From a virus, in IMG/VR virus record IMGVR_UViG_3300017917_005124, positions 1 to 64,000 of that record: a stretch of 64,000 nucleotides of DNA; one strand, given 5' to 3'. Position 1 is the stretch's first letter. Each line of letters starts with the position of its first letter. Below the pieces are notes generated by a model. The model made no database searches and had not been told where the DNA came from. It was given only the letters and a program-made list of their open reading frames with translations. This document shows positions 9,657 through 49,472 of the stretch, in pieces. The translations under genes and the position numbers were made by a program.

Positions 9657-12600
9657 ATGATAGATAAAAAAATGTTTGAATATACTAGGTGTGCAAAGGA
9701 CCCAGTATATTTTCTTAATAATTATGGTTTTGTATTTGATGCTAAAAAGAAAAAGGTAGACAAGATGACTTGTTTCCCTTATCAAGAATCGTGTGTACAA
9801 AAGTTTCATAAGGAACAAAATAATATAATACTTAAGTCAAGACAATGTCTTCCTGAAGATACTTTTGTTGATACTCCAGATGGGCCAAAACCAATTCAAG
9901 ATTTTAAAATTGGAGATTTTGTGTATTCTTATAATCTTGAAACAGGTCAAGTTGAAATGGATACAGTCGCTGACTCTTGGCTTAGTGGGGATAGACAATG
10001 TGTTAAATTAAAACTAAAAGATTCAAGAAATATTGAAGTTGGAGAGAATCATCCATTTTGGATTGTAAACAAACAGGCTTGGATAAAAGCTAAAGACCTT
10101 GATATTAATGATGAAATACTGGATGCTAATATAGGGTTTGGTGATGTGAATGTAAGTGATGAAGAAATAAAAATACTTGCCTATCTAATTACAGATGGGT
10201 GTACTAATAAGCAAGTAAAATTTACTAATAATAATATTGATTATCTATCTGAGTTTGAAGATAGTGTTAATATATGTTTCCCTGATTTAGAGATTAGAAA
10301 AAGTCCTAAATTAAATGGATATGATTATTATCCTCACCAAAAACATGGAGTAAGTACTTTAAATCCAATAATAGAGTGGTGTGAGAACAAGGGTATAGCT
10401 AATAAAAAGACAGAGTTTAAAAATTTACCAGAAGAAGTTTTTTATTGGGACAAAAATTCCGTATCTCTATTGGTTAATAGAATATTTGCTGGAGACGGAT
10501 GGATTTCTATTTTAAAAAAAACTGGAAATAAAAGATTAGAGCTGGGATTGGGCTCCCCATCACTCGTTTTTTTAGAACAAATTAAAATGTTGCTTAAAAA
10601 ATATAATATAAAAGGCAATATTTATGAAGTTAAAAATATGAAACTTCAGCAAAATAAATTTTATAAACTTAGAATAACTCACTCAAAAAGTGTATCTAAA
10701 TTTATAAATGAAATTGGAATTTATAAGAAAATAAATCAAGAACATCTTGATATTATAAATAATAGAGTTCATGATGTAAAAAACACATCTATTGTTAGAA
10801 AAATAGAGAAAACAGAAACCAAAAAGTGTTATGACATATCTGTTACAAAAAACGAAAATTTTTTAATTAATGGTTTGTTGGTTCACAATACTGGTCTCTC
10901 AGTTGTTACTGCTGGATATGTTGCGTGGAGGCTTATGTTTAGATATGATGAGAAAATACTTATCATTGCCAATGATGGAGCAGGAGCTGTTCGTTTTCTC
11001 GATACTGTTAAGCAATTTATTGAATATACACCAGATTGGATGAAACCAGATTCTGTTGAGACAGAAAATCAAAAGAAAATAATGTTTTCAAACAATTCTT
11101 ATGCTGAAGCTAAGGCATCAAGCCCTAATGCTGGTCGTGGAGATTCGCTTACAATGCTCATTCTTGATGAGACCGCCTTCATCAAGGATGCTGAGGCAAT
11201 TTGGATGGGCGCTGGTATGGCGCTTTCAGCTACTGGTGGTAAGTGTATAATGATTTCATGTGTGCCAGAGGGTACGATGGTATTTACTGATAATGGAATC
11301 AAAGAGATAGGTCAATTTGTTGATAAGAAAAAAAATGGTGGTTATGAAATAGATGAATATAGTGTATATGGAAAAGATAGGCTAAGGAAAGGTAATTTGT
11401 TTTTTAATAACGGTGAACATGATACAAAAATAATAACTACTACAAATTCAATATTTGAGGGAACATTTTCACATAAATTATGGGCATGTAAAAATGGGGT
11501 TTATGATTGGTACAAGACGGAGGAATTAGAGGTAGGTGATTATGTATCTGTACAATATGGCATGGAGTCTTGGGGTGGCAATGATTTTGTAATGGATTTT
11601 AAACCAACTATTAGTAATAAGATGTCAAATAAATTTAATCCTGATAGGATTACAAAAGAAATTTCTTATTTAATTGGATTGTATATTAGTGAAGGTTCTG
11701 TTTATAAAAAATATAATGAAAATAAAGAGTTTATAGGAGGCAGTGTTACGATTACATGTGGTGACGATATATCTAAAGCAATTAAAGATATTGGACTCTC
11801 ATACTCATGTCATGATGGATTACATTATTCAATAGGTTCAAAAAATTTAATTGAGTTTTTGGAATATATTGGTTTTGATTTATCTAAGAAGGCTAGAGAA
11901 AAAGAAATTCCAAAGAGGTTGTTTGAAATGTCTAGAGAGAATATAATTTATATGCTCAGGGGAATTTTTGATGGTGACGGATATTCAAGAAAAGATAAGG
12001 GATATATTGGTATTGGAATGAACTCAAAAAAATTAATACAACAACTAAGGATGTTGTTATTAAATTTTGGTATTTTAACTGATTATAGTGAGGTTTGGAC
12101 TAAAAAAACAAAAAAAGTTAACATAGAGACATTAAATTTTAGAATATCTGCAAATGCAGAGTTTTCTAAGATATTTTATGATAATATAGGTTTTAATTTT
12201 GATAGAAAGCAAAAAAATAAATTAATTTTGGAAAATTATAATTTAAAAAGAAATTCTCCAAATGATATAATACCATTCTCATTAAATTTAATTAAGAGAG
12301 TAATTAGTGAAAGTGGTCTTAAAATAAAAAATTTTAAGGATGCAGGCATATTTATTAATTCGATAGTAAATTCGAGATTAGAATATAAAACGCAACATGT
12401 AAGTAGAAAATTGTTTTTAAAAGTATTTGAAATTTGTAAAAATAAAATTTCAAATGAAACTATAGTTGAAGTAGAAAAGTGTTTATCATCAAATTTAATT
12501 TGGAATAAAATAAATAAGATAGAAAAGTCTAAAAAAGAAACTTATGATTTTTCTTTACCAAATAATGATGAAGATTTTTGGGCTCACTCTGTTATATATA

Positions 12601-15023
12601 ATGGTGTGTTAGGCCATCAAACGCCAAATGGTACTGGTAACCTGTACTACAAGACATGGGTTGATGCTGTAAATAATGATAACAAATTTAATGGCACAAT
12701 GGTTCATTGGACAGAGAATCCAAACAGTTCTGTTAATCTTGAATGGAAAATAAGCCCAACTGGAGAAAAAGTGCCTTGGAGCCCATGGTATGAGGACCAG
12801 TGTAAGAGGCTTAATTGGGACTCTGTTAAGATTGCTCAAGAGCTTGACCTGTCATTTGAAGGTTCCAAGAGGCTTGCTGTTGACCCAGAGCTTGTCACCA
12901 AGTATCATGCTAAAGTTATGGCTGATAGTAATGCTGAGGGGTATATGAGATTTGACTACATGGAGAAAGAAAATCCGACAGAGTTTGCAAAGATTGTTAC
13001 CGACATCACAAATATGACAATATTTAAGAGGCCAGAAGAGGGTAGGCAGTACATCATAGGATGTTTACCTCCTGATGAAAAAGTTTTGACAGATAGTGGA
13101 TTGATGAATATTCAAGATGTTACTGTTGATGATAAATTAGTTAGTGAGAATGGTGATTATGTTGATATAATTAATAAGCAAATATACCAAGTTATTGATG
13201 AGGATATATTTGAGATGAAAATGGATAACACTTTTAGAACAACAACATTTACAAAGGAGCATCCAATTTTAATTAGTAAACCAAATTTGAAAAGAAATTA
13301 CAACAAAAATCATAATAAGTATAGATTTAATGAAAGATATTGGGATTTTGATTTTAATTACACAAGAATGGAAGATGTTGAAATTGGTGACTGGATTAAA
13401 GTTCCTAATGTGTATAAAAAGGAAATAAAAAATATTTATAATGATAAATGGAAAATAAGCGAATCTGTTAGGTCTGATTTTGAGTTTGAATCACCATTGT
13501 TAGAAGATGACTTTTGGTGGTTTATTGGAATGTGGCTAGGAGATGGATGGTTAGGAAAAAATAATTATTCACATACAATATCAATATGTTTTGATAAAAA
13601 TCATGAGGGCTACATTGAAAAATGCGAAGATATTATTAAACGATTATTTAAGCGTTCTCCATCTTTTGTTGATAAAGGTAGTACATATGAATTAGTTTTT
13701 AATTCTAAATTTTTGTACTATTTTATATTAGAAAATTTCGGTCAATACTCACATGGAAAAAAAATACCAGAATGGGTTAAATTTATATCAAATGAATATA
13801 AAAAAGAATTGATTAGAGGTTATTTTGATAGTGATGGATGTTGGGTTAAGATAAATAAAAATGGAATTTTAAATTCAAAAGTAAGTTTTGTTAGTATTAA
13901 TCTGGAGTTGCTTGAATCAATACAAGATATTATTTTCTCTCTTGGTATTATTTCATCTCTAAGTAAGTTGCGAGATAAAAAAACGGCAATAACTCTTAAC
14001 AGAGAGTGTAAGCAAAAAGAAACATACAATTTAACATTATCAAATAATGATAGTTTAGAGTTGATAAATTTAATTTATAAACATGATGATATTAAGTTAA
14101 ATAAATTTAGTTTTAATGATTTTAATATTAAGAATAATAGAATTATTAGCTCTTGTCATTTTGATGAAGATAAACAATTTATTTATTTTAGAGTCAAAAA
14201 AATAAGTAAATCTAAATTTACTGGCAATGTTTATAATTTTGAGTGTGACACACACACATTTATGTGTCATCATATAACGACACATAATTGTGACGTTGCT
14301 AGAGGTGATGGACAGGATTACTCGACAATACAAGTTCTTGATGTTGATACGCTTGAGCAAGTTGCGGAATACAGAGAAAAAGTTTCTCCAGACCTTTTTC
14401 CTTTTGTGATTAATTATGTAGCAAGAATGTATAACATGGCCTATGTTGTAATAGAGGCCAATTCATTTGGTCTTGGTGTATGTTTTGATATAAGAGATAA
14501 ATTTAAATACCCAAGAAATAGATTATATTTTTCTAAGAATATAAAAGATATACATGTAAGGCATTATAGTTATAAGGTGAATGAGGGAACTGAAATTCCA
14601 GGATTCCAAACAACAAGAAAAACTAGAGTATTATTAATTAAGGCAATTATAGAACATATGAGAGAGGGTTCATTAATTTTGCATTCTAAGAAGTTGATGG
14701 CCGAATTTCAAACTTTTGTTATGAATGGAGATAAACCAGAACATGAGCCAGGATTTAATGATGACCTTATTCTCGCTCTTGGTCTTGCACTTTATATTAG
14801 AGACACTGAGTTTGAAAATGTAACATCAAGTACAGAAATGTATAAGAGCATGCTTAGTGCTATGATGCTTAATTCTAATTCTAGCTCTGGAAAATTACCA
14901 GACCCAAACAAAAAAATAGATTTACCAAAAGGTGGTGCTGGTTTGTATATTTTCAATGGTACAAATAACATGAATAATATAGAAAATTCAGACCCAGATG
15001 ATTTAAGTTGGCTTATGGGATAA
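9657..15023 (+). CDS. terL: Large terminase subunit (DNA-packaging ATPase/nuclease) with three inteins
   Basis: 1788 residues, of which 577 are terminase after removing three inteins. The enzyme translocates phage DNA into the prohead through the portal and cuts it. Spliced motifs: a deviant Walker A KSRQ-TGLS, a Walker B with catalytic Glu in LTMLILDETAF, the coupling motif MIS-TPNGTG, and the RNase H-fold nuclease acidic residues in CDVARGDGQDYS, VVIEANSFG and GFNDDLILALG. Inteins occupy residues 64-411, 535-988 and 1136-1544. Each sits inside one of these motifs, so no activity is expected before splicing. The portal gene follows 58 bases after the stop. The start at 9657 is the only ATG upstream of the conserved N-terminus; a short inverted repeat overlaps it. 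I am confident of the family. Confidence 0.93.
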   Translation: MIDKKMFEYTRCAKDPVYFLNNYGFVFDAKKKKVDKMTCFPYQESCVQKFHKEQNNIILKSRQCLPEDTFVDTPDGPKPIQDFKIGDFVYSYNLETGQVEMDTVADSWLSGDRQCVKLKLKDSRNIEVGENHPFWIVNKQAWIKAKDLDINDEILDANIGFGDVNVSDEEIKILAYLITDGCTNKQVKFTNNNIDYLSEFEDSVNICFPDLEIRKSPKLNGYDYYPHQKHGVSTLNPIIEWCENKGIANKKTEFKNLPEEVFYWDKNSVSLLVNRIFAGDGWISILKKTGNKRLELGLGSPSLVFLEQIKMLLKKYNIKGNIYEVKNMKLQQNKFYKLRITHSKSVSKFINEIGIYKKINQEHLDIINNRVHDVKNTSIVRKIEKTETKKCYDISVTKNENFLINGLLVHNTGLSVVTAGYVAWRLMFRYDEKILIIANDGAGAVRFLDTVKQFIEYTPDWMKPDSVETENQKKIMFSNNSYAEAKASSPNAGRGDSLTMLILDETAFIKDAEAIWMGAGMALSATGGKCIMISCVPEGTMVFTDNGIKEIGQFVDKKKNGGYEIDEYSVYGKDRLRKGNLFFNNGEHDTKIITTTNSIFEGTFSHKLWACKNGVYDWYKTEELEVGDYVSVQYGMESWGGNDFVMDFKPTISNKMSNKFNPDRITKEISYLIGLYISEGSVYKKYNENKEFIGGSVTITCGDDISKAIKDIGLSYSCHDGLHYSIGSKNLIEFLEYIGFDLSKKAREKEIPKRLFEMSRENIIYMLRGIFDGDGYSRKDKGYIGIGMNSKKLIQQLRMLLLNFGILTDYSEVWTKKTKKVNIETLNFRISANAEFSKIFYDNIGFNFDRKQKNKLILENYNLKRNSPNDIIPFSLNLIKRVISESGLKIKNFKDAGIFINSIVNSRLEYKTQHVSRKLFLKVFEICKNKISNETIVEVEKCLSSNLIWNKINKIEKSKKETYDFSLPNNDEDFWAHSVIYNGVLGHQTPNGTGNLYYKTWVDAVNNDNKFNGTMVHWTENPNSSVNLEWKISPTGEKVPWSPWYEDQCKRLNWDSVKIAQELDLSFEGSKRLAVDPELVTKYHAKVMADSNAEGYMRFDYMEKENPTEFAKIVTDITNMTIFKRPEEGRQYIIGCLPPDEKVLTDSGLMNIQDVTVDDKLVSENGDYVDIINKQIYQVIDEDIFEMKMDNTFRTTTFTKEHPILISKPNLKRNYNKNHNKYRFNERYWDFDFNYTRMEDVEIGDWIKVPNVYKKEIKNIYNDKWKISESVRSDFEFESPLLEDDFWWFIGMWLGDGWLGKNNYSHTISICFDKNHEGYIEKCEDIIKRLFKRSPSFVDKGSTYELVFNSKFLYYFILENFGQYSHGKKIPEWVKFISNEYKKELIRGYFDSDGCWVKINKNGILNSKVSFVSINLELLESIQDIIFSLGIISSLSKLRDKKTAITLNRECKQKETYNLTLSNNDSLELINLIYKHDDIKLNKFSFNDFNIKNNRIISSCHFDEDKQFIYFRVKKISKSKFTGNVYNFECDTHTFMCHHITTHNCDVARGDGQDYSTIQVLDVDTLEQVAEYREKVSPDLFPFVINYVARMYNMAYVVIEANSFGLGVCFDIRDKFKYPRNRLYFSKNIKDIHVRHYSYKVNEGTEIPGFQTTRKTRVLLIKAIIEHMREGSLILHSKKLMAEFQTFVMNGDKPEHEPGFNDDLILALGLALYIRDTEFENVTSSTEMYKSMLSAMMLNSNSSSGKLPDPNKKIDLPKGGAGLYIFNGTNNMNNIENSDPDDLSWLMG
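9846..10889 (+). other. TerL intein 1 (Walker A site), LAGLIDADG type
   Basis: In-frame insertion of 348 residues, from Cys64 (CLPEDTFVDTPDG) to His-Asn (LLVHN), followed by Thr as the +1 nucleophile. Block B-like GENHPFW is present. Two LAGLIDADG-type motifs, AYLITDG and NRIFAGDGW, mark a homing endonuclease domain. It splits the P-loop of the ATPase (KSRQ/TGLS). All residues needed for standard splicing are visible. Confidence 0.92.
11259..12620 (+). other. TerL intein 2 (motif III site), LAGLIDADG type, ends in Gln
   Basis: 454 residues, from Cys535 (CVPEGTMVFTDNG) to His-Gln (GVLGHQ), followed by Thr. The terminal residue is Gln instead of Asn, a known but less common variant that still cyclises in some inteins. 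LAGLIDADG motifs: GLYISEGSV and RGIFDGDGY. The insertion site is MIS/TPNGTG, the motif that couples ATP hydrolysis to movement. It is the longest of the three. Confidence 0.9.
13062..14288 (+). other. TerL intein 3 (nuclease active-site), LAGLIDADG type
   Basis: 409 residues, from Cys1136 (CLPPDEKVLTDSG) to His-Asn (HHITTHN), followed by Cys. LAGLIDADG motifs: IGMWLGDGW and RGYFDSDGC. The insertion falls directly before CDVARG, whose Asp is the first metal ligand of the nuclease. Cys+1 is therefore both the splice nucleophile and part of the extein. Confidence 0.92.
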
Positions 15024-15081: not shown

Positions 15082-17124
15082 ATGGCAAATGAAGATAAAA
15101 ATGATTTAAGTATTTTTAGTGGTGTTAACAACGCCATTAATAAAAATAAGCGAAGAACACCTGTGGTTCAAAATCCTGGTGTTGTGCAAAATGTTGGAGA
15201 TGGATTGCGTCAGCGTCAAGGTAATAATATAGAACATGTTCAACAGCAATTCTTAGATTGGCAAGTCAATAAAATTGCTAATGACCTATATACTAGAACT
15301 ATATATTATGATACAGATAGGTTAGTTGCTTATGGTGATTTTAGAGCTATGGACCAATCTCCAGAGATTGCGGCAGCCTTAAATATAATGAGAGATGAAT
15401 GTATTACTAGGGGTGAGAAAGGTAAGATACTTGATATATTTTCAGAGAATTCTAGGGTTAAGACGGTTCTTGAAGATTTATTTTATAACAGATTAGATAT
15501 TGATTTTGCACTTAAGCTTTGGATTCGTGAGCTTCTTAAATATGGAGATTTATTTTTACAACTTCACATTGATAAGGAAGAAGGTATATATGGAGTAATG
15601 GCTTTGCCTTCTGATGAAATGCATAGAGAAGAGGGTTATGAGGGTAGGACTGATGATGTAAGGTTTAAGTGGGAGACTACTGGTGACATATTTGAAGATT
15701 GGCAAGTTGCTCACTTTAGATTGCTTGAGGATGTTAGAAAATTACCATATGGACGCTCTATACTAGACCCAGCTAGAAAACTTTGGAAACAACTTCAGCT
15801 TGCTGAAGATTCTATGTTGGTATACCGTATAACAAGAGCTCCAGAGAGGCGTGTTTTTTATATTGATGTAGGAAATCTTGAACATGCTGATGTATCTCAA
15901 TTTATTCAACAATTTCAAATTCAGCTCAAGAAACAGCCAATAGTTGACCAAAGAACAGGGAATATAAACTTGAAGTACAATCCAATGAATGTGACAGAGG
16001 ATTATTTTATTCCAATGAGGGCTGATAGGTCATCAAGAATCGAAACATTGCCAGGAGCTTCAAATCTTGGAGACATTCAAGATATTGAATATCTCCAAAA
16101 TAAATTATTCGCCTCACTTCAAGTTCCTAAGAATTACTTGAACTATGGGGAATCACTCCCAGGAGGCTCAACATTATCTCAGCAAGACCTTAGATTTGCT
16201 CGTACAATTAATACAATACAACAAGCAGTTCTTGCAGAGCTTAAGAGGATTGCAAATATTCATCTGTACTTTAATGGGTTTAAGGATGATATTGATAATT
16301 TTACATTAACACTTAACAATCCTTCTACACAACAGGAGTTACTTAAGCTTGAGACGATGAAGGCACGTCTTGAGGTATTTAAGGAAATGTTCTCTGCTGA
16401 AGCAACGTCACCAGTATCTTATGTATGGGCAATGGAAAATATTTTAGGATTTTCTAAGAGTGAGATTAAACTTATTCTTAAGCAGAAAAAGGTTGAAAAG
16501 AAAATTTTCGCTGAAATTGATTCTGCTGTTGAAATGTATAAGAAAATAGGATTATTTAGAGAACTTGATGATAAATATGAAATAGAAGGGGCTGAAGAAA
16601 TGATGATGGCTCAACAATCAGGAGAAGAAGCTGAAGGTGCTGGCGGAGATGTTGGTGGCGGAGGTGGAGGCCTTGGTGGAGCATTTGGAGGCGCTGGAGA
16701 ACTTGACCTAGGTGCAGATACTGGAGCTGAAGTAGGGGCTGAAGCAGGCGGTGCTGAACCTGAAGCAGGGGCTGAAGCAGCTCCAATAGCGGAGTATAAA
16801 TTTAGAAAAGTTCAAAATATTTCTGATAATTATGTAGAAAAAATGTTAAATGAATTACTTGGAAGTGATGAAAATAAATCTATCAAAAAAGTAGAAGACA
16901 ATGCTTTAATTAAAAGGAGTGAGTCAATGAATTTTGAATCTAAAAAATTAATTAGCAATATTAAAAATGGACTATCAAAAAGAGGTTTTAGGGAAACAAT
17001 ACAAGAGGGTTATTTTATCGAGACATCAAAAAATCCACTTGTAGATAACTCTGAAAAATTAAATAGTGATAACAATCAATTAATGAGTGAGATAGAAACT
17101 TATTTAAAAAATAGAAAAAAATAA
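15082..17124 (+). CDS. Portal protein (T4 gp20-like)
   Basis: 680 residues. This would be the dodecameric ring at the capsid vertex through which TerL pumps DNA. The order and features fit T4-like portals: an N-terminal segment with FLDWQVNKIANDLYTRT and YRAMDQSPEIAAALN-like sequence, a central region with the PSDEMHREEGYE and ILDPARKLWKQLQLAEDS stem motifs, and LPGGSTLSQQDLRFARTI. A Gly/Ala/Glu-rich low-complexity segment covers about residues 515-570, with a helical C-terminal tail. The leader (15024-15081) contains CTATTTAATTTATAGAAA, a variant of the motif seen before other structural genes. Next to TerL, this is the usual packaging module. Confidence 0.85.
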   Translation: MANEDKNDLSIFSGVNNAINKNKRRTPVVQNPGVVQNVGDGLRQRQGNNIEHVQQQFLDWQVNKIANDLYTRTIYYDTDRLVAYGDFRAMDQSPEIAAALNIMRDECITRGEKGKILDIFSENSRVKTVLEDLFYNRLDIDFALKLWIRELLKYGDLFLQLHIDKEEGIYGVMALPSDEMHREEGYEGRTDDVRFKWETTGDIFEDWQVAHFRLLEDVRKLPYGRSILDPARKLWKQLQLAEDSMLVYRITRAPERRVFYIDVGNLEHADVSQFIQQFQIQLKKQPIVDQRTGNINLKYNPMNVTEDYFIPMRADRSSRIETLPGASNLGDIQDIEYLQNKLFASLQVPKNYLNYGESLPGGSTLSQQDLRFARTINTIQQAVLAELKRIANIHLYFNGFKDDIDNFTLTLNNPSTQQELLKLETMKARLEVFKEMFSAEATSPVSYVWAMENILGFSKSEIKLILKQKKVEKKIFAEIDSAVEMYKKIGLFRELDDKYEIEGAEEMMMAQQSGEEAEGAGGDVGGGGGGLGGAFGGAGELDLGADTGAEVGAEAGGAEPEAGAEAAPIAEYKFRKVQNISDNYVEKMLNELLGSDENKSIKKVEDNALIKRSESMNFESKKLISNIKNGLSKRGFRETIQEGYFIETSKNPLVDNSEKLNSDNNQLMSEIETYLKNRKK

Positions 17125-17545: not shown

Positions 17546-19651
17546 ATGTACATAGTATTTGATACTGAGACAACAGGCAAGGCAAAGAGTTTTAGTGCGC
17601 CTATAACTGATTTTAATAATTGGCCAAGGATGGTTCAAATTGCTTGGAAATTATTTGATAGAAATGGTGTTGAATTAGATTCTCAGAATTTAATAATTAA
17701 ACCTCAAGGATATATAATTCCTGATGAGGCAATAAAGATTCATAGAATCACAAACGAAAGAGCTAAGTCTGAAGGTGTTTTATTAAGAGTTGCTCTTGAG
17801 AAGTTTGGAGAAGCAATTAGAAATAGTAAATACTTAATTGCGCACAATATAACATTTGATGAAAATGTTGTTGGTTGTGAGCTTCTTAGAGAAGGTATGC
17901 ATAATTATATTCAAGATATTATGCATATTGATACAATGACACGTACAACTGAGTTTGTGGGAATTCCAAATAAAATGGGAAGAAGTGGATTTAAATATCC
18001 TTCTATGACTGAGCTTCATCATAAATTATTTGGCAAAGGCTTTGAAGATGCGCATGATGCACTTGCTGACGTTACAGCTCTTGCTAATTGTTTCTTTAAG
18101 TTACAAGAATTGGGTATTTTAGGATTTAAAGAAAATGATGATGACATTAGTTTAAGTTCACTTTCTGAGTTTGCTAAAGATAAAGCTTCTAGTGTTATAT
18201 TAAATAAAAATATACCATTTACAGCTCTTGGTGTACACACATTCCATTCAATACTTGAAGGCGCTGGCTCAGTTGATGAATATATAAAATTAGCTCAATC
18301 ATTAGGTCATACTTCTATGGCAATAACAGATAATTCAACTTTATCTGGAACATTTGAATTTTATAATAAATGTAAATCCAAAGGCATAAAGCCTGTGTTT
18401 GGTATAGAAATGTTATTAAATGATAATATTGGTATTTATTTTGATAATAAATCTTTTGAGGGAGATAATTTTAAAATTAAAATTTTTATAAAAGATGAGA
18501 AGGGTTATTGCAATTTAAATCACTTATTATATCTTGCAAATACAGAAGGATACTATAATAAGGAGGGTAGAATAAAAACTGAATGGCTCCTTAAGTATAA
18601 GGAGGGGCTATTGGTTTCTACATCTGGACTAGATAGTAAACTTGCAAGCATGGTTCTTAGAGGTAAAGAAAATGATGCTGAAAATTATGTTAATATGCTT
18701 AGGGCTGAATTCCAAGATGACCTCATAATAGAGCTAAAGTTCAGTAAATTTGCTAACCAAAAACAATACAATAATTTCTTGCTTAAGATGATGAGAAAGT
18801 ATAATATTATGCCAGTCTTGAGTAATGATACATATTACCCAACAAAAGATGATTCTATTTTGCAAGATGTTGTAACAGCTATTAAGCAGCATAGAACAAT
18901 TTCTTCCTGTTCTCTTAAGGAAAATAGAGAGCTTTGGTATTTTAGTAGCGATGATTTTAAAAATATTAACATAAAATATGGTTTTAATTACCCAGATGAA
19001 TTTATTGAATTATGTATGCAAAATACATTAAAGGTTGCAGATAAGTGTAATTTTAAATTTGATACTGGCTCTGAAAAATATCCTAGATATGAACCTACTG
19101 AAGATATTATAAAATATTTTGGCACCGATATCCCAGAAGAGATTATAAAAAAACTTTCATTTGCAAAGTTGAGGCAAAAAATTAAGAAGTACCAAGAGAA
19201 TGGTATTGTTGAAATGACGGATGAAAAAATTAAAGAGTATGTTGACCGTCTTAATTATGAGATTGAAGTTATTGAATCTAAGAAGATGCTTGACTACTTC
19301 CTTGTAAACTGGGAAATTATAAATTACTACAGAAAGCAAGGATTTTCCATTGGTCCTGCTAGGGGATGTTTTTTGCCTGGGAGTAGGGTTAAGATGGCTG
19401 ATGGCATGTATGCTCCAATAGATACAATTGAGATTGGAGATAGGGTGATTGATGCCTTTGGGGATGAGAGAGAAGTGATTGATACATTGGAATATGATAT
19501 TGATGAAGACATTATTGAGCTTGAGTTTGATGATGGAAGAATCATTGAGTGTACACTTGACCATGAGATTCTTACAGAGAATCGTGGATGGGTTCATGCA
19601 AAGGATTTGACAGAAGAAGATGAAATTGTTGATATAAATAAAGCAAGATGA
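17546..19651 (+). CDS. DNA polymerase III alpha, fragment A: proofreading exonuclease + PHP + start of palm + N-intein 1
   Basis: 701 residues. Residues 1-190 are a DnaQ-like DEDDh 3'-5' exonuclease: Asp6 and Glu8 in FDTETTG, Asp105 in HNITFDEN, His170 and Asp175 in HDALADV. A PHP domain starts near 224, but its metal site looks degraded: AITDNS stands where active PHP domains have TDHG. The C-family polymerase domain begins after that and stops at GPARG (residue 607). Residues 608-701 are the N-terminal half of a split intein starting with Cys (CFLPGSRVKM). The chain is useless as a polymerase until joined to fragment B. The ATG of the next frame overlaps the stop (ATGA at 19648). A host-like promoter lies upstream. 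Confidence 0.9.
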   Translation: MYIVFDTETTGKAKSFSAPITDFNNWPRMVQIAWKLFDRNGVELDSQNLIIKPQGYIIPDEAIKIHRITNERAKSEGVLLRVALEKFGEAIRNSKYLIAHNITFDENVVGCELLREGMHNYIQDIMHIDTMTRTTEFVGIPNKMGRSGFKYPSMTELHHKLFGKGFEDAHDALADVTALANCFFKLQELGILGFKENDDDISLSSLSEFAKDKASSVILNKNIPFTALGVHTFHSILEGAGSVDEYIKLAQSLGHTSMAITDNSTLSGTFEFYNKCKSKGIKPVFGIEMLLNDNIGIYFDNKSFEGDNFKIKIFIKDEKGYCNLNHLLYLANTEGYYNKEGRIKTEWLLKYKEGLLVSTSGLDSKLASMVLRGKENDAENYVNMLRAEFQDDLIIELKFSKFANQKQYNNFLLKMMRKYNIMPVLSNDTYYPTKDDSILQDVVTAIKQHRTISSCSLKENRELWYFSSDDFKNINIKYGFNYPDEFIELCMQNTLKVADKCNFKFDTGSEKYPRYEPTEDIIKYFGTDIPEEIIKKLSFAKLRQKIKKYQENGIVEMTDEKIKEYVDRLNYEIEVIESKKMLDYFLVNWEIINYYRKQGFSIGPARGCFLPGSRVKMADGMYAPIDTIEIGDRVIDAFGDEREVIDTLEYDIDEDIIELEFDDGRIIECTLDHEILTENRGWVHAKDLTEEDEIVDINKAR
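19367..19648 (+). other. Split intein 1, N-terminal half (94 residues)
   Basis: Starts with Cys608 right after the extein GPARG. It contains the block A to B features: a DxIEIGDRV turn and TLDHEILT, a TxxH-like block B. The chain ends at a stop instead of an endonuclease. Its partner is at 20083-20190. Confidence 0.88.
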
Positions 19652-20102
19652 AAGAAAGGGATTATAATCAAATAGATGCACTAAAATATTTGGTGGAAAC
19701 TGGACCTACGCATACAAATGAATGGACTGAAGCTGGTATGTATAATATATTGTCTAAAGTTATATTAGAAAGTGCGAGGAGATATAAAAAACAAGAGCTT
19801 GATAAATTAATCCAAGAAGCATCAAATTATTAAACAGGAAACACAAAACCTCAAGTAGGTCTAATTTTAGAAAATTGAGACTATATTTTATTTTAGATAA
19901 TAAATATTTAATTGAAGTTAAGGGTTATGGTCCGTGGGCAGATATAGCTAATATTAGCAAAAAAAATGAGGCTGCTAAGGTTTGGTGTAAAGAAAATAGT
20001 ATGAGATATAGACTTGTTGAGTTTAAAGATATTGGTAATCATTGGTATAAAAAGGCGAGAAATAAACATAAAGAATTAAATAATGGCGAAATTAAAGAGT
20101 AG
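19648..20102 (+). pseudogene. Decayed homing endonuclease in the gap of split intein 1
   Basis: Two overlapping frames look like one broken gene. Frame one (19648-19833) gives 61 residues from an ATG overlapping the previous stop. The second frame is open from 19806 to 20102 and reads NRKHKTSSRSNFRK and then DNKYLIEVKGYG, with KKNEAAKVWC and RYRLVEFKDIG. This resembles the EVKG / AA..WC / VEF end of PD-(D/E)XK-type phage homing nucleases, such as the intact gene at 48342. A frameshift and an internal deletion are the simplest reading. The end overlaps the start of the C-intein gene by 20 bases, as in the other two gaps. The nuclease type is a moderate-confidence call. Confidence 0.6.
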
Positions 20103-20190
20103 AAAAATTAGAAAATATACAGGAAAAGTTCATGACTTAACTGTTGAAGAAACTCATTCATATAATATTGAGGGTTTAGGGGTTCATAAT
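20083..20190 (+). other. Split intein 1, C-terminal half (36 residues)
   Basis: Contains the block F-like segment [15 protein letters not shown] and block G GVHN, followed by Ser. It pairs with the N-half ending at 19648. Confidence 0.9.
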
Positions 20191-20577
20191 TCTGCTGCAG
20201 GAAGTTTGCTCTCTTGGTGTCTTGACATCACAAAGATTGACCCAATAAGATTTGACCTTTATTTTGAGCGTTTTCTTAATCCAGAGAGGAACTGCCTCAC
20301 ATCAAACTGTAATGTGATGCTTAAAGATGGCTCTTATAAAAATATTGTAGATGTTGAGGTTGGTGACCCTGTTCAGACTGAGCATGGACTTGGAACACTG
20401 GTTCAAAAGCATGAGAGAGAGCTTAGAGAAGATGAGAGTGTTTATGAGCTTGAAACTGAAGATGGAGCAAAGGTTCAGTTAACAGGTTGTCATATTGTTC
20501 CTGTGTTTAGAGAAGGTAAGAGAATAGAGGTTCGTGTTGATGAAATATTGGAGACCGACCAATTATTTGTATTTTAA
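20083..20577 (+). CDS. DNA polymerase III alpha, fragment B: C-intein 1 + 34-residue extein + N-intein 2
   Basis: 164 residues in three parts. Residues 1-36 are a C-intein ending [12 protein letters not shown], followed by Ser+1. Residues 37-70 are polymerase sequence (SAAGSLLSW...FLNPERN), matching the C-family motif G-S-x-A-G-S-L and FERFLNPER that leads into the catalytic PDxDxDF. Residues 71-164 begin with Cys ([10 protein letters not shown]) and form the N-half of a second split intein. So only 34 residues of this gene reach the mature polymerase, and both of its ends must be trans-spliced. Translation is probably coupled to the overlapping upstream frame. Confidence 0.92.
20293..20574 (+). 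other. Split intein 2, N-terminal half (94 residues)
   Basis: Begins with Cys71 of fragment B after the extein NPERN. It contains [12 protein letters not shown] and a TGCHIVPVF block B-like stretch. It has the same length as the other two N-halves but little sequence similarity to them. Confidence 0.88.
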
Positions 20578-20593
20578 AAAATTTAATTTGATT

Positions 20594-21288
20594 ATGAAAA
20601 AATATTTAGATATTAAGACTATTAAAGTTTCTAATTTAGTTGCTGAGTATATGATAAAGAAGTTTTTTCAAGAAAACTCTCCATCTCTTTTTAAGAAAGA
20701 GTTTGTAAAAATTTTTGAAATAGAAAAATTAATTAATGATTATCTGAGGCAAATTGATGAAGATGAAGTTAATTTATATATTAAAGAGCATAGAAAATTA
20801 GACTATAAATCAAGACCTTGTTTTGCTTTTATTTCTGATAATTTAACAAATCCACTTAGATTATATTTAGACCAACACACAGAAGGCGAAAGTGTTTGTG
20901 TTGATGATTTTTCCTTAGCAAGTGATTATTATACACAAGATTTAGAAACAAATAAGAATATAATGGATGTGAAATAGATAGAAGTGGTGTTTATGATTAT
21001 AAAAACAAAAAACTATATATTCCAGATTTTATTAATAGAAAGTTAAAGATTTTTATTGAGTTTAACGGTGATTATTGGCATTGTAATCCATGTATATTTA
21101 AAAAAGAATATTATAATACAGTTAAAAAAATGACTGCTGAAGAAATTTGGAATAAAGATAAATTTAGAAACGAAAGAATTAAGAAATTGACTGGATGTTG
21201 TTATTTGGTTGTTTGGGAAAATGATTGGAATAAAAACAAAGAAGAGGTTAAACAGATTTTAATAAAATTTTTAAATGAAAAAAAATAA
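20594..21288 (+). pseudogene. EDxHD (Vsr-like) homing endonuclease in the gap of split intein 2, frameshifted
   Basis: From the ATG at 20594 one frame runs to a stop at 20977. A second frame, open from 20956 to 21288, encodes YIPDFINRKLKIFIEFNGDYWHCNP, here read as IPDF + IEFNGDYWH, and ends with VVWENDW. The E-x-x-G-D-Y-W-H pattern and the VWEND end are those of the EDxHD homing endonucleases, a family described next to split inteins in fractured phage genes. One frameshift near 20950-20976 would restore a protein of about 230 residues. It could be real decay or a sequencing error. The 3' end overlaps the C-intein gene start (21275) by 14 bases. Confidence 0.75.
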
Positions 21289-21418
21289 AATAAAATCAAT
21301 AAAAAAAATTGATTATAAAGGAGTAGTTTACGACCTTTCTTTTAATAAAGATAATTTATTTTTTACTTCAAGTAATACTTTAAGTGAAGGTACTCAACTA
21401 TCTGTTTTAGTGCACAAT
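21275..21418 (+). other. Split intein 2, C-terminal half (48 residues)
   Basis: Contains GVVYDLSFNKDNLFFTSS (block F-like) and QLSVLVHN, followed by Ser. It is longer than the other two C-halves by 8-12 residues. Confidence 0.88.
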
Positions 21419-22882
21419 AGCTCACCAGATATTGATATTGACTTTATGACTGGAACTGATGATATTACAAATAACTTTTTATATGAGAAATATGGAAGAG
21501 AGCGTGTGATGTCTGTTGGAACATTTGGAACATTTTCTGAGAAGAATACTATTAAGGATGTTGTTAGAGCATATCAAGGAAAGGATGCTACTGGATTTGG
21601 TTCAGATGTATTTGCGTTAACTGAGGAGATGCCAGACTTCCTTAAGTACAACGATACACTTGAGCACTGGTTCGAGACATGGCCAGATAATCCAGAATGT
21701 AGTCCTAGAGTTAGAAACTGGATTAAAGACCCTAAGAATAAAGAAATAATAGAAGTTGCACTTAAGCTTCAAGGTAATATAAGAGGTGTGGGTCAACATG
21801 CTGCTGGTATAGTAATTACTCCGAGTGAGTCTTGGAACTATGTTCCTACTAATATAATCGCATCAAACGAAAATATTGTTACAGCATTTCAAGAGGCTGA
21901 TAAATCTGGAAAAGACCTTAGTGCTCTTGGGATTTTAAAATTAGACAGACTTAAATTAGAAACTCTAAATGTAATCAAGGAGGCTATTGAGATTGTAAAG
22001 AAAAATAAGGGTATAGATATATCTGATAAAGTTGACTACGTTGACCTTGAGGATGAAAATTTATTCATTGAGCTTAGACTTGGGCTTAACCATGGTATAT
22101 TTCAGTTTGAGAGTAGTGGTATGAATAACTTAATAAGAGGAATGCAGGTTGAGAAGTTTGAAGAGCTTGTTGCATGTAATGCGCTCTATAGACCAGGTCC
22201 AATGGGAATTGGTGCCCACGAGGAGTTTATCACAAATAAATTTAATCCTGAAAAAATTAAATTGGTCCACCCAGCTCTTGAGCCAATTCTTAGAGAGACA
22301 AATGGAGTACTTGTATTTCAGGAGCAACTAATGTTTATTGCTGATAGAATTGGTGGAATGGGTCTTGGTAAGGGTGATAACCTTAGAAGATACATGGATA
22401 AGGCGAGTAAGATTATTGCTCGACACTCTGCAGGAGAAAAGCTTACTGAAGAAGAGTTAAACAATAGCAACTGGAAAGGGTTTCAACAATATTGGAATAT
22501 GTTCCTTGAGGGAGCTGCTGCTCAAGGGTATGATACTGCGGAGGTCGATAAAATTAAGGATTGGGTAATCCAATATCTTGGATATTCATTCAATAAGTGC
22601 TTAACAGAAAATCATAAAGTAATTTCTGAGGATAGAGGCGAGATTAACATTCTTGATGTGAAGATTGGAGAGAAAGTTCTTGGATATAATCCCGAAACTG
22701 GCGAGGATGAGTTTAATCAAGTTAAGGATATTCATCATAATGGCAGGAAAAAGGTTTACAGGATTAAAACGAAGTCTGGAAAAATATTAGAATGTACTGA
22801 AGACCATAAGATTATGACAGAAAGTGGGATGAAAACTTTAAAGGAGGTTAGAGAAAATAAATTAAAAATCAAAATTGTATGA
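21275..22882 (+). CDS. DNA polymerase III alpha, fragment C: C-intein 2 + catalytic palm/fingers + N-intein 3
   Basis: 535 residues. Residues 1-48 are a C-intein ending VLVHN with Ser+1. Residues 49-441 are the core of a C-family polymerase: SSPDIDIDF with the two catalytic Asp, then the finger region with NALYRPGPMG, GVLVFQEQLM and GKGDNLRRYMDKAS. They end at GYSFNK. Residues 442-535 begin with Cys (CLTENHKVIS) and are the N-half of a third split intein. Two trans-splicing reactions are needed on this chain. The intein 2 junction (NPERN/SSPDIDIDF) is two residues from the start of the catalytic motif. The family call is very secure. Confidence 0.94.
   Translation: MKKNKIKSIKKIDYKGVVYDLSFNKDNLFFTSSNTLSEGTQLSVLVHNSSPDIDIDFMTGTDDITNNFLYEKYGRERVMSVGTFGTFSEKNTIKDVVRAYQGKDATGFGSDVFALTEEMPDFLKYNDTLEHWFETWPDNPECSPRVRNWIKDPKNKEIIEVALKLQGNIRGVGQHAAGIVITPSESWNYVPTNIIASNENIVTAFQEADKSGKDLSALGILKLDRLKLETLNVIKEAIEIVKKNKGIDISDKVDYVDLEDENLFIELRLGLNHGIFQFESSGMNNLIRGMQVEKFEELVACNALYRPGPMGIGAHEEFITNKFNPEKIKLVHPALEPILRETNGVLVFQEQLMFIADRIGGMGLGKGDNLRRYMDKASKIIARHSAGEKLTEEELNNSNWKGFQQYWNMFLEGAAAQGYDTAEVDKIKDWVIQYLGYSFNKCLTENHKVISEDRGEINILDVKIGEKVLGYNPETGEDEFNQVKDIHHNGRKKVYRIKTKSGKILECTEDHKIMTESGMKTLKEVRENKLKIKIV
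22598..22879 (+). other. Split intein 3, N-terminal half (94 residues)
   Basis: Begins with Cys442 of fragment C. It contains ILDVKIGEKVLGYNPETGE and CTEDHKIMTESGM, a clear block B with T..H. The insertion point GYSFNK/SHS lies a few residues downstream of the site used by the cyanobacterial DnaE split intein. Confidence 0.9.
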
Positions 22883-22946
22883 TACAAATTGGAGTTATAT
22901 GTATTTCTACTCCTATTATAGATAATGATTATAACTTATCTATAAA

Positions 22947-23366
22947 ATGGAACATTTGAATAAGATACCAGAACATGTGTTTTCTGGAATTAATAAAGAA
23001 GGTTTTTTAAAATATGTTGAGGATGTATTTATAAAAATAGAAAATTTAGATGAAATACATATTCCAGCTGCAATTTCATTTTTGAAGATTAAGTTTTTAA
23101 ATGGAAATATTGATTTTGAATCAGGCGCATTGATGATAAAAAGTCAATGTAAAAAGTAAGTTTTAATAAATCTCATACTACGCAATCCAAAAACTCGTCA
23201 TGCAACACCTAAAAGTGATATGCAGAAAAATAATTTGGAGAGAGATGAAAGAAAGCGTAATTTTGTAAAAGAAAATTTAGAATACGAACTCATTGAAGTA
23301 TGGGAAAATGATATAATTAATAATATTGAAAAAGTAAAAATATGCTTGAACAATTTGAAGAAATAG
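22947..23366 (+). pseudogene. Remnant EDxHD-type homing endonuclease in the gap of split intein 3
   Basis: An ATG frame (22947-23159) of 70 residues ends at an in-frame stop. The same frame then continues to 23366 with NLERDERKRNFVKENLEYELIEVWENDIINN, read here in parts: NLERDERKRNF and ELIEVWENDI. That is the typical C-terminal end of the EDxHD nucleases, matching VVWENDW at about 21220 and VVWEYDL at about 26700. The catalytic middle is missing, so an internal deletion plus a stop has killed it. The 3' end overlaps the C-intein gene by 25 bases. Confidence 0.65.
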
Positions 23367-23461
23367 TTGAATTTGAAGAAATAGGTGAAGTAGAAACTTA
23401 TGACCTTGAAATAGAATCTAAACATCATAATTTTTATGCTAATGGAATTTGTGTGTCTAAT
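23342..23461 (+). other. Split intein 3, C-terminal half (40 residues), ends Ser-Asn
   Basis: Block F/G end reads YANGICVSN followed by Ser-His. The missing penultimate His, which normally assists Asn cyclisation, is unusual but tolerated in some natural inteins. Confidence 0.85.
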
Positions 23462-24430
23462 AGTCACTCACTTTCCTATTCATATCTTGCAATGCAAACG
23501 CTTTATTTAAAGCACTATTACCCTACAGAATTTTACACAGCTCTTCTAAATCACCCAAAATCTGGAACTAAGGAAAAGCAACAAGCGTGGATTGCGTCTG
23601 CGATTTCATCAGCAATGTCTAAGGGAATTATAATCAAGAGACCATCTAGAAAGTCAGGATGGGAGTGGACAATGACAGGAGACCATGAAATATCAATGGG
23701 GTTCTCTGGAATCAATGGATTGGGTACTATAGCTTATGAGGAAATGCTTCAACTTATAGATGAAATTCCAGTAGAAAATGGTCAACCTAAGAAGACTCTT
23801 GAGACTGTAAATATGAGTACATTTATGAGACTGCCGTTTAGTAAATTCAATAAAGGTGCGTTTACATCTTGTGTTAAGGCTGGTGTCTTTGATGACTGGA
23901 GCGAGTCAAGAGAGCAATTGCTTGCAATTAAGCAGAAAAAGAAAAAGAAAGTAATAGCAAACCAAGGTGTATTATTTGATATGAATGACTCTTCTTTTGA
24001 TATACCTATGCAAAAAGATGATGTTAATTATCCACCTACTTCTGATTTAACAAAGAGGTCTGAATTTATTGATGTATGTAATTTTGACCTTGAAAAAATA
24101 AAATATATTCTTGATATTAAGAGTGATGTAAATAATAGAGCTAAGAGAGAAAAGCCAGTTGATACTATAATTAATTTTGATGAAAATGATTACTATATTT
24201 TTGTTGTTGAGACATTTAGGCTTATGCAAAGTAAATCTGGAAAACAATATTTAACTATGAAAGTTGGCGATGGAATTAGTCATACTACAATTAGAGCATT
24301 TGAGCCAACTGTAAATGACCTCTTACCTATTTTGGTTACAAATGGTATTTATGTTGGTGAGTTTGAAAAAAATGACAAGGGGTATATCAATTTTAAGAGA
24401 GGAACCAGAATAGTAAGAGTTGATAAATAA
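23342..24430 (+). CDS. DNA polymerase III alpha, fragment D: C-intein 3 + C-terminal polymerase region
   Basis: 362 residues. Residues 1-40 are a C-intein with YDLEIESKHHNFYANG and the end CVSN. The penultimate residue is Ser rather than the usual His. Ser+1 follows. Residues 41-362 continue the polymerase with SHSLSYSYLAMQTLYLKHYYPTEF, split here as SHSLSYSYLAMQ and YLKHYYPTEF, then the HhH-like region and an OB-fold stretch around VVETFRLMQSKSGKQYLTMK. Joined, fragments A-D give about 1356 residues (607+34+393+322), a normal length for an exonuclease-fused alpha subunit. RNase H follows 38 bases later. Confidence 0.92.
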   Translation: MLEQFEEIVEFEEIGEVETYDLEIESKHHNFYANGICVSNSHSLSYSYLAMQTLYLKHYYPTEFYTALLNHPKSGTKEKQQAWIASAISSAMSKGIIIKRPSRKSGWEWTMTGDHEISMGFSGINGLGTIAYEEMLQLIDEIPVENGQPKKTLETVNMSTFMRLPFSKFNKGAFTSCVKAGVFDDWSESREQLLAIKQKKKKKVIANQGVLFDMNDSSFDIPMQKDDVNYPPTSDLTKRSEFIDVCNFDLEKIKYILDIKSDVNNRAKREKPVDTIINFDENDYYIFVVETFRLMQSKSGKQYLTMKVGDGISHTTIRAFEPTVNDLLPILVTNGIYVGEFEKNDKGYINFKRGTRIVRVDK

Positions 24431-44916: not shown

Positions 44917-44924
44917 TATATTTG
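44917..44924 (+). promoter_or_regulatory. TATATTTG, host-like -7 element before the family A polymerase
   Basis: TATATTTG ends 6 bases before the ATG at 44931, so a message from it would be nearly leaderless. No good -33 TTTG at normal distance was seen. Confidence 0.4.
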
Positions 44925-44930
44925 CAATAT

Positions 44931-46553
44931 ATGTTTATAGTTTGCAAAATAATAGTTGATAATAAGGAGTTAGAATCTAATTTAAAAGGTTTTCTAAGAG
45001 GTTATCCAGTTGATATAAGTTGCAACTCATCAATAGATGAACATTTAAATATGCCAATATTATTTGTAGGGTGGGATTTGGTTAAGAGAATATTCCCACT
45101 TCAAAAAATACATGATAATAAGGTTAATGAAAATATTGAATGGACATATAATGAATCTGAGTGTAATGAAATAGATAAAGAAGGGTTTTATAGTAATATA
45201 GAAGAATTTGTTAATAGAAATTTGAAATCTTGGCTCCCATCTAATTTTATATTATACGATTATATAATTCATGGAGAATTAATTAAATTTATAGAAGCAA
45301 ATATAAATAATGAAATAAAGACTTATGTTCATTATAATAATGGTGCTATTTACATGAGAAATGGAGATAATGATTACATTATTAATACCAAGAGTTTGTG
45401 GATGTTTGATGATGACTATAGAAACACAATAACAAATGTTTTAAATAGTACTAATTGTATGGTGTATTCATATAATGGGATTGAGGATTATGTAAATCTT
45501 GACACATTAGGGAATTTAGTTTCATTAGACATTTTAAGATGGATTAAATTTGGAGTAGAGACACCTATAAAGTATTTTCAAATAATACCAAATATTGATA
45601 TAAGTAAATATATACCATTCTTGATGAGTAAGATTGTAATGAATTCTCTTGAATTAAATAATCAAGAGTTGATATATTTCAATAGAATGTGTCAGAGAGA
45701 TAAGATAACTAGGTGGATGTCTAGTAGATATTTATCATTTTCTTATGATTTTAAAAAGAATTTAAACTTTATATTTAGAGAAAATGCTAAGCTAGCAAAA
45801 ATAAACTATTCAAGTAAGAGGACTATAACAGGTAGAATAACATCAATTGATAAGTATAATCCACAGAATCTATCTAAGACTAATGAAGATAGGTCTATGA
45901 TAATTTCTAGATTTACAGGGGGAAAAGTATATCAATTTGATTATACTTCATTTGAAGCAAGGATATCTTTGTATTTGAGTGAAGATGAAGAATTTATAGA
46001 GAATTATTATGATAAAGACCTTCACTTAGAGACTGCTATGTTAATATTCGATGTCTTTGAACCAACAGAAGAGCAGAGGGAAATAGCAAAATTAGTAAAT
46101 CACTCTGTGTTATATGGAGCAGGCGAAGCTACTATACTAAGTAAGCTACAATCTTTACCAAATCCTATTGAAAAAATGATAATTGTTAAAGAGTTTTTAG
46201 CTCCTATATTTAAAAAATCTAAGGAGTTAATGGAATTATCAGAAAAATATGGATATATAATAAATAAATGGGGTTCAATAATAAAGCCAGAAAAATCATA
46301 CGCTGGATTTAATAATTATATACAATCAACAGCTTCTGAAATAATTGTAGATAAAGTTATTGAAATAAAGGAATTATTAATAAACTGCAGAAGTCAATTT
46401 ATGTTTCAAGTGCATGATTCATTAGTTTTTGACATTCATCCAGAAGAAAATTATCTTATTGAAAAAATATATAAAATAATGTCTTATCATAGAAATATGA
46501 TTTTTTCTGTAGATTATAAGTCAGGTTCTAATTTTAAAGACCTACATTATTAG
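44931..46553 (+). CDS. Family A DNA polymerase (Pol I-like), no recognisable exonuclease
   Basis: 540 residues from the ATG at 44931; a TTG at 44922 is less likely. Polymerase motifs: KRTITGRITSIDKYNPQNLS (template-binding), motif A QFDYTSFEARI with catalytic Asp337, motif B REIAKLVNHSVLYGAG, and motif C QVHDSLVFDI with Asp496. Motif C reads HDS where most members have HDE. The first ~290 residues show none of the usual 3'-5' exonuclease acidic motifs. The genome therefore has two replicative-type polymerases of different families, this one and the split C-family enzyme. Repair, primer-gap filling or an alternative replication phase are possible roles. Confidence 0.88.
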   Translation: MFIVCKIIVDNKELESNLKGFLRGYPVDISCNSSIDEHLNMPILFVGWDLVKRIFPLQKIHDNKVNENIEWTYNESECNEIDKEGFYSNIEEFVNRNLKSWLPSNFILYDYIIHGELIKFIEANINNEIKTYVHYNNGAIYMRNGDNDYIINTKSLWMFDDDYRNTITNVLNSTNCMVYSYNGIEDYVNLDTLGNLVSLDILRWIKFGVETPIKYFQIIPNIDISKYIPFLMSKIVMNSLELNNQELIYFNRMCQRDKITRWMSSRYLSFSYDFKKNLNFIFRENAKLAKINYSSKRTITGRITSIDKYNPQNLSKTNEDRSMIISRFTGGKVYQFDYTSFEARISLYLSEDEEFIENYYDKDLHLETAMLIFDVFEPTEEQREIAKLVNHSVLYGAGEATILSKLQSLPNPIEKMIIVKEFLAPIFKKSKELMELSEKYGYIINKWGSIIKPEKSYAGFNNYIQSTASEIIVDKVIEIKELLINCRSQFMFQVHDSLVFDIHPEENYLIEKIYKIMSYHRNMIFSVDYKSGSNFKDLHY

Positions 46554-48341: not shown

Positions 48342-49472
48342 ATGGAAAAAAAATTTAATAGAAATTGTCCTCAATGTAAAAGTGAGCTAATTTATACGAA
48401 TATAAAAAATAGAAATCAAGCTGAAAAGCATCAAAAAAAATGTAAAAAATGCATCAATTCAAAAAATATTGAAAAAAATAGAATTAAAATGCAGTCTAAA
48501 TATTTAATATTTGATGATATAAGAAATAAAGAAATTATTGATATTTTTAATGAAATTGGTAGTAATTGGAAAGTTTTTAGAAAGGAGGTAATTCCTGTTT
48601 TTAATAAATTTAAAAAAGAAACTAAAACAATAATACTTTGTAGAAATTGTCCTGAATGTAATATAGAATTATTTTATTCTGATGAAATAAGTGTTAAAAA
48701 TGCAAATAAAAAAAAATCTTTATGTAAACCTTGCAGCAAAAAAGGAGAAAAAAACTCTTTTTTTGGAAAAAAACATACACAAGAATCTTTAATAAAAAGG
48801 TCTAATTCTTTAGAAACTTCTGATTCTTGGAAAAAATTTATTGAATATAAAAAAAGCGAAGAGTATAGAGGTAATTTGTCAAAATCTATGTCTGGAGAAA
48901 ATAATCCAGCATTTAATAGAGGGAAGTTGATAGATATATGGGCAAAAAAATATGGAATAGAAGAGGCGGAAATAAGACATAAAAATTGGATAGATAAGTT
49001 ATCTAATTCATTTACAGGTGAAAAAAATCATATGTATGGAAAGCCTTCTCCTGTTGGTTCTGGCAATGGCTGGTCTGGTTGGTATAATGGGTGGTACTTC
49101 AGAAGTTTAAGAGAACTTTCTTATATGATTACTGAAATTGAAGATAAAAACTTAAAATGGGAAAATGGGGAATTAAAAAAATATAAAATATCTTATATTG
49201 ATTGGGATGGTAAAAACAGAAATTATTTCCCTGATTTTGTAGTTGAAAATAAATACATGATTGAATGTAAGCCTAATAATTTAATCAATTCAAAGTCAGT
49301 AATCTGCAAAAAAGAAGCGGCAGAAAAATTTTGTAATACTAATAATTTAGAATATATAATTGTGGAGCCAAAAATATTGTCTAAAGAAGAAATAGAGAAT
49401 TTGTATTATTCAGGAAAAATTAAATTTTTACCAAAATATGAAGAAAAGTTTTTAAAGTATATTGAAAAATAG
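48342..49472 (+). CDS. Homing endonuclease: zinc fingers, NUMOD3 motifs, PD-(D/E)XK nuclease
   Basis: 376 residues. Two zinc-binding segments, CPQCKSELIY...CKKC and CPECNIELFY...CKPC, occupy about residues 7-140. Then NUMOD3-type DNA-binding motifs follow (FFGKKHTQESLIKRSNS; GENNPAFNRGK; GEKNHMYGKPSP). The C-terminal catalytic part has YFPDFVVENKYMIECKP, giving D and E-x-K, followed by KKEAAEKFC and EYIIVEP. It lies alone between a terminator and the 5'-3' exonuclease gene, a typical free-standing phage homing nuclease. A broken relative sits in the split intein 1 gap. Confidence 0.85.
   Translation: MEKKFNRNCPQCKSELIYTNIKNRNQAEKHQKKCKKCINSKNIEKNRIKMQSKYLIFDDIRNKEIIDIFNEIGSNWKVFRKEVIPVFNKFKKETKTIILCRNCPECNIELFYSDEISVKNANKKKSLCKPCSKKGEKNSFFGKKHTQESLIKRSNSLETSDSWKKFIEYKKSEEYRGNLSKSMSGENNPAFNRGKLIDIWAKKYGIEEAEIRHKNWIDKLSNSFTGEKNHMYGKPSPVGSGNGWSGWYNGWYFRSLRELSYMITEIEDKNLKWENGELKKYKISYIDWDGKNRNYFPDFVVENKYMIECKPNNLINSKSVICKKEAAEKFCNTNNLEYIIVEPKILSKEEIENLYYSGKIKFLPKYEEKFLKYIEK

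Follow-up and report, generated by a model that had tools for sequence, protein, structure and literature searches.

Why should the packaging ATPase/nuclease of a phage be encoded together with three inteins, each placed in or beside a catalytic motif? This question is raised by the large terminase gene (terL) in the stretch of DNA analysed here (the window), which covers positions 1-64,000 of record G000, a linear fragment of 95,437 bases. The first-pass annotation had described three distinct LAGLIDADG inteins in one terminase, and their coordinates, sites and proportions were found to be right on the basis of the single frame, profile matches and exact junctions:

9657-15023, plus strand: terL ORF with three inteins, 1788 aa in a single open frame
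9846-10889, plus strand: intein 1, site a, in Walker A; 348 aa, residues 64-411, KSRQ/C...HN/TGLS, Thr at +1; HINT and LAGLIDADG domains
11259-12620, plus strand: intein 2, site c, in the coupling motif; 454 aa, residues 535-988, IMIS/C...HQ/TPNG, Thr at +1; LAGLIDADG
13062-14288, plus strand: intein 3, site e, adjoining the nuclease Asp; 409 aa, residues 1136-1544, YIIG/C...HN/CDVARG, Cys at +1; LAGLIDADG
14289-14291, plus strand: Cys codon at +1 of intein 3, which stays in mature TerL

Removal of 348 + 454 + 409 residues leaves a TerL of 577 aa, the mature length given earlier, and the inteins make up 67.7% of the ORF, i.e. two thirds of the 1788-residue chain. Two stretches of the mature protein align to T4 gp17 structures (3ezk and 3cpe, E=1.6e-39 and 2e-38), and both the ATPase and the RNase H-like nuclease domain are alignable to gp17, which is the criterion used here for a T4-type large terminase. 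The three junctions map on gp17 to SRQ/LGKT in Walker A, to TT/TPNG in the coupling motif, and to the residue preceding the first nuclease Asp. This Asp is D401 in the T4 numbering.

The Pfam LAGLIDADG_3 profile scored above its cut-off in all three inteins, whereas the Intein_splicing profile scored above cut-off in intein 1 and gave significant matches below cut-off in intein 2 (1e-5) and intein 3 (0.001). The terminal residues are those of class 1 inteins (Cys1 in each; HN, HQ and HN at the C-terminus; Thr, Thr and Cys at +1), and they are accompanied by a HINT domain and by precise in-frame insertion into a known uninterrupted protein. As had been noted before, the inteins differ in sequence, sharing only about 23% identity over long local alignments. 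The AlphaFold2 model of intein 3 (pLDDT 85) matches the fold of the TliVMA intein, PI-SceI and I-DmoI; for intein 2 the model has low confidence (mean pLDDT 69), and phmmer searches of the PDB sequences with inteins 2 and 3 gave no match.

The explanation which we hold with high confidence is that three separate, independently homing selfish inteins have entered terL, each at its own site, and all of them would have to splice. Each of them would consist of a HINT splicing domain with a nested LAGLIDADG endonuclease. The ORF would be translated into one 1788-aa precursor, from which each intein cuts itself out, and the four stretches of TerL are joined to give the packaging ATPase/nuclease of 577 aa; this splicing is predicted from the catalytic residues, the exact junctions and conservation. 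The endonucleases would probably cut the intein-free terL of co-infecting phages, and repair would then copy the intein in. Inteins of this kind could persist as selfish elements, spliced well enough to be tolerated, and a packaging clock would be needless.

The distribution of the inteins was mapped over relatives, a check which had been proposed along with the original description. Scanning viral contigs (IMG/VR) with the TerL C-terminal extein gave 23 relatives, and in 20 of them TerL is colinear across sites a, c and e without any insert. The other three are L023, a fragment covering only site e, which is empty there, L024 with an intein at site a only, and L026 with an intein at site e only. 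Some of the relatives are near-identical (e.g. L016-L019), so the 20 represent fewer independent phages than their number. The uninterrupted colinear genes fix the junctions exactly, speak against chance and show that phages of this group can do without the inteins. We also asked whether the inteins sit in the best-conserved stretches of terL, which the data did not show; the DNA near the empty sites ranks at the 91st percentile of conservation within the gene for site c, the 75th for a and the 54th for e, with no significant joint excess (p = 0.11).

Scans with each intein identified alleles occupying the same codons in other contigs. Intein 1 has alleles at 15 loci (L024, L040-L053) and intein 3 at more than 30 (L026, L055-L090), while close alleles of intein 2 occur in two contigs (L051, L053/L054) and more distant ones in L055, L063 and L080. 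Reading of the frames distinguished five TerL intein sites. Site a lies in Walker A, b a short way upstream of the coupling motif, c within that motif and e at the nuclease Asp; d, located between c and e, is filled by a split intein. The window is occupied at a+c+e, L055 and L080 at b+c+e, L051 and L053 at a+c, L065 at b+e, L067 at d+e, and L063 at b+c+d+e. In the latter, four-intein case (L063:654-7956) TerL is made up of two polypeptides whose genes flank an endonuclease-like ORF, and the split intein has a short N half and, in its C half, a match to the consensus intein CatC (PDB 6dsl, E=2.6e-11). On the contigs compared, the three-intein TerL is unusual among the window's own relatives but recurs elsewhere; with three or four inteins in L055, L080 and L063, it is evidently not unique. 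In our deep TerL alignment the matches kept are biased to uninterrupted genes and one search pattern leaves out the intein-associated Cys, so that it yields no unbiased frequency of multi-intein TerLs. By reading, the portal genes downstream of terL in L051, L063 and L080 carry more than one intein each; the portal gene of the window (15082-17124) has none.

Intein 3 shares 66-78% identity with copies in TerLs whose C-exteins are only 30-35% identical to that of the window, and 60, 62 and 47% identity with copies in TerLs of 61, 56 and 51% extein identity. In the extein tree the window is grouped with intein-free relatives, L026, L078 and L086 (support 100/100), whereas in the intein 3 tree it is grouped with L055, L057, L059, L061 and L080 (95/98). 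The intein 3 data reject window+L026+L078 (p-AU 0.0024), window+L026 (2e-11) and window+L078 (8e-5). Judged from these trees and identities, intein 3 has demonstrably moved horizontally between deeply diverged TerL lineages. The tree test covers intein 3, and for inteins 1 and 2 the corresponding observation is their allelic and patchy occurrence. Moreover, Cys is found at +1 in 24 of the 24 intein 3 alleles examined, and 17 intein-free relatives carry Ala, Gly or Val immediately before the nuclease Asp; the codon for this Cys was either brought by intein 3 or present beforehand. An analogous conversion of an extein residue, Pro to Ser by MCM-d, has been described (PMC10643990). The splicing and endonuclease parts gave dN/dS values of about 0.08-0.28, which are rough because synonymous changes are almost saturated; the endonuclease parts appear to be conserved, which is what one expects of homing elements.

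Inteins of the same record are not confined to terL. Four separate ORFs encode the pieces of DNA polymerase III alpha:

17546-19651, plus strand: piece A (exonuclease, PHP), with a split-intein N half at 19367-19648
20083-20577, plus strand: piece B, an intein C half, a 34-aa extein and the next intein N half
21275-22882, plus strand: piece C, an intein C half, a 393-aa extein and the next intein N half
23342-24430, plus strand: piece D, an intein C half and a 322-aa extein

The three split sites are PARG/SAAG, PERN/SSPD and SFNK/SHSL. The joined exteins (1356 aa) are colinear with uninterrupted genes in nine loci (L004, L005, L006, L009, L014, L015, L020, L021 and L023), and the relatives in the examined set have either an uninterrupted polymerase or no more than two of the three sites. 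The halves of split intein s1 are 86-89% identical to those in L189-L191, where the extein is only 47-59% identical; as far as these identities indicate, the pattern is the same as for TerL intein 3. The ORFs at 19651-20083, 20577-21275 and 22882-23363 resemble broken endonuclease genes, since a reading of the frames gives overlapping frames and short remnants. A second DNA polymerase, of family A (44922-46553, Pfam E=1.5e-26), is found alongside.

The ribonucleotide reductase gene NrdA carries a further, less conventional intein:

54287-55378, plus strand: NrdA intein, 364 aa, Gly at +1, within the NrdA ORF at 53423-57097

Standard intein chemistry requires Cys, Ser or Thr at +1. At the NrdA site (INQ/GGKRKG) the window has Gly in this position, which sets the intein apart from class 1. 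The same site is filled in nine loci (L136, L139, L140, L151, L156, L164, L165, L167 and L168), some of them near-identical; all nine have Gly at +1 and several of the inteins are clearly split. The site is empty in L091-L102. The one candidate checked among cultured phages, a Lysinibacillus phage, has a single uninterrupted annotated NrdA gene, and no paper on Gly at +1 was found in the literature searched. Bacterial intein-like domains are without a +1 nucleophile, and those of type A can splice by a proposed aminolysis, with cleavage dominant (PMC4031507). Beyond the window, a ClpB-like gene (record 69281-73501, L002:5281-9501) is interrupted within the P-loop of the second ATPase domain; the intein there has a short N half (about 30 aa), and a 524-aa ORF lies between the gene parts. 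It is possible, and we put it forward tentatively, that the phage is an intein super-host needing eight splicing reactions, in which the NrdA intein, like those at this site in several other phages, splices with Gly at +1 and so without the usual side-chain nucleophile, perhaps by aminolysis. The eight predicted reactions in such a phage would be three in cis for TerL, three in trans for polymerase III alpha, one in trans for the ClpB-like ATPase and one for NrdA.

These data bear on the other possible answers to the opening question. The first-pass annotation had suggested that the three inteins act as a joint post-translational timer, with TerL inactive until slow or conditional splicing ends and packaging thereby placed late. 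Its premise, that neither ATPase nor nuclease can form before splicing, is a fair structural inference, as the insertion sites lie in ATPase and nuclease motifs and the precursor should therefore be inactive; conditional splicing is also reported for other inteins, e.g. that of mycobacterial DnaB (PMC6195587). The clock itself is not supported. All 20 close relatives spanning the three sites do without inteins, the TerL inteins are patchy, with intein 3 horizontally moved, and their endonuclease parts are conserved. Further, DNA polymerase III alpha and NrdA, normally early functions, carry inteins in this record as well, and hence its inteins are not specific to packaging. We regard the timer as very unlikely. 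The same argument has been made for archaeal inteins with frequent gain and loss (PMC10643990).

Another reading is that at least one TerL intein does not splice, so that the gene is a decaying pseudogene or another terL is in use. A second terL could lie outside the 95-kb linear fragment; the second, intein-free copy which would have spoken against the original description was sought in the fragment, and only one TerL was found there. Against decay stand the open frame, the intact catalytic residues, an extein dN/dS of 0.06-0.07 (versus L004 and L006) and the C-terminal HQ of intein 2, which is invariant in six of six alleles, and this reading is very improbable. Chimeric assembly from phages with and without inteins is conceivable for a metagenomic record but hardly credible here, as the junctions are in-frame, codon-exact and at sites filled by alleles in other contigs, where two to four inteins are stacked too.

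Invasion by independently homing inteins is accordingly retained as the probable origin of the present terL. A few other features of the record were observed. An ORF at 48342-49472 has NUMOD3 motifs and a TnsA-like nuclease domain and is likely a free-standing homing-type endonuclease, and one at L002:12466-13605 resembles, by sequence only, a TnpB/IS605-type protein. The word TATAAATA occurs 28 times in the window against 15.1 expected from shuffles, on both strands and without clear relation to terL.

This study presents a well-resolved natural case of putative homing inteins stacked in a single essential gene of a phage, for which relatives with empty sites, alleles and a Cys trace in the mature enzyme are at hand. 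It adds a TerL intein site beside the nuclease Asp and shows that one TerL intein lineage crosses packaging motors which are only about one-third identical. With the four-piece polymerase and the Gly+1 NrdA intein two questions become testable, namely how many steps of splicing an essential machine can bear and whether splicing can proceed in a host gene without a +1 nucleophile.

In mycobacteriophages, TerL inteins TerL1-a to -e, TerL6-f and Pham3880-g have been described (PMC5050341). As in the window, they include insertions in the P-loop and in the coupling (C-) motif, and splicing was argued to be needed before an active complex; all of them are placed in the ATPase domain, whereas the window has three occupied sites in one gene, one of which (e) is at the nuclease Asp. 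A crAss-like (Delta group) TerL (cMAG OBYQ01000140, PMC7886860) also has more than one intein, but these are two Hint-Hop inteins in another phage lineage with TAG recoding. Haloquadratum polB, with three endonuclease-bearing inteins, and haloarchaeal MCM, with four sites (PMC10643990), resemble the present case in having several homing inteins per essential gene, independent transfer and an extein residue changed with the intein, whereas they are cellular replication genes and not a phage packaging motor. AceL-TerL, GOS-TerL and Cat-TerL (PMC11766414) likewise come from environmental phages, and the site-d C half of L063 matches CatC; they are natural split inteins at a different site, which the TerL of the window does not have. 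The TliVMA intein (PDB 7qss/7qsu) and PI-SceI (1vde) share the predicted fold of intein 3, but only 12-16% sequence identity, and reside in a different host gene. The multi-intein TerL is of a kind already known, and it is the stacking of inteins across the whole record that stands out.
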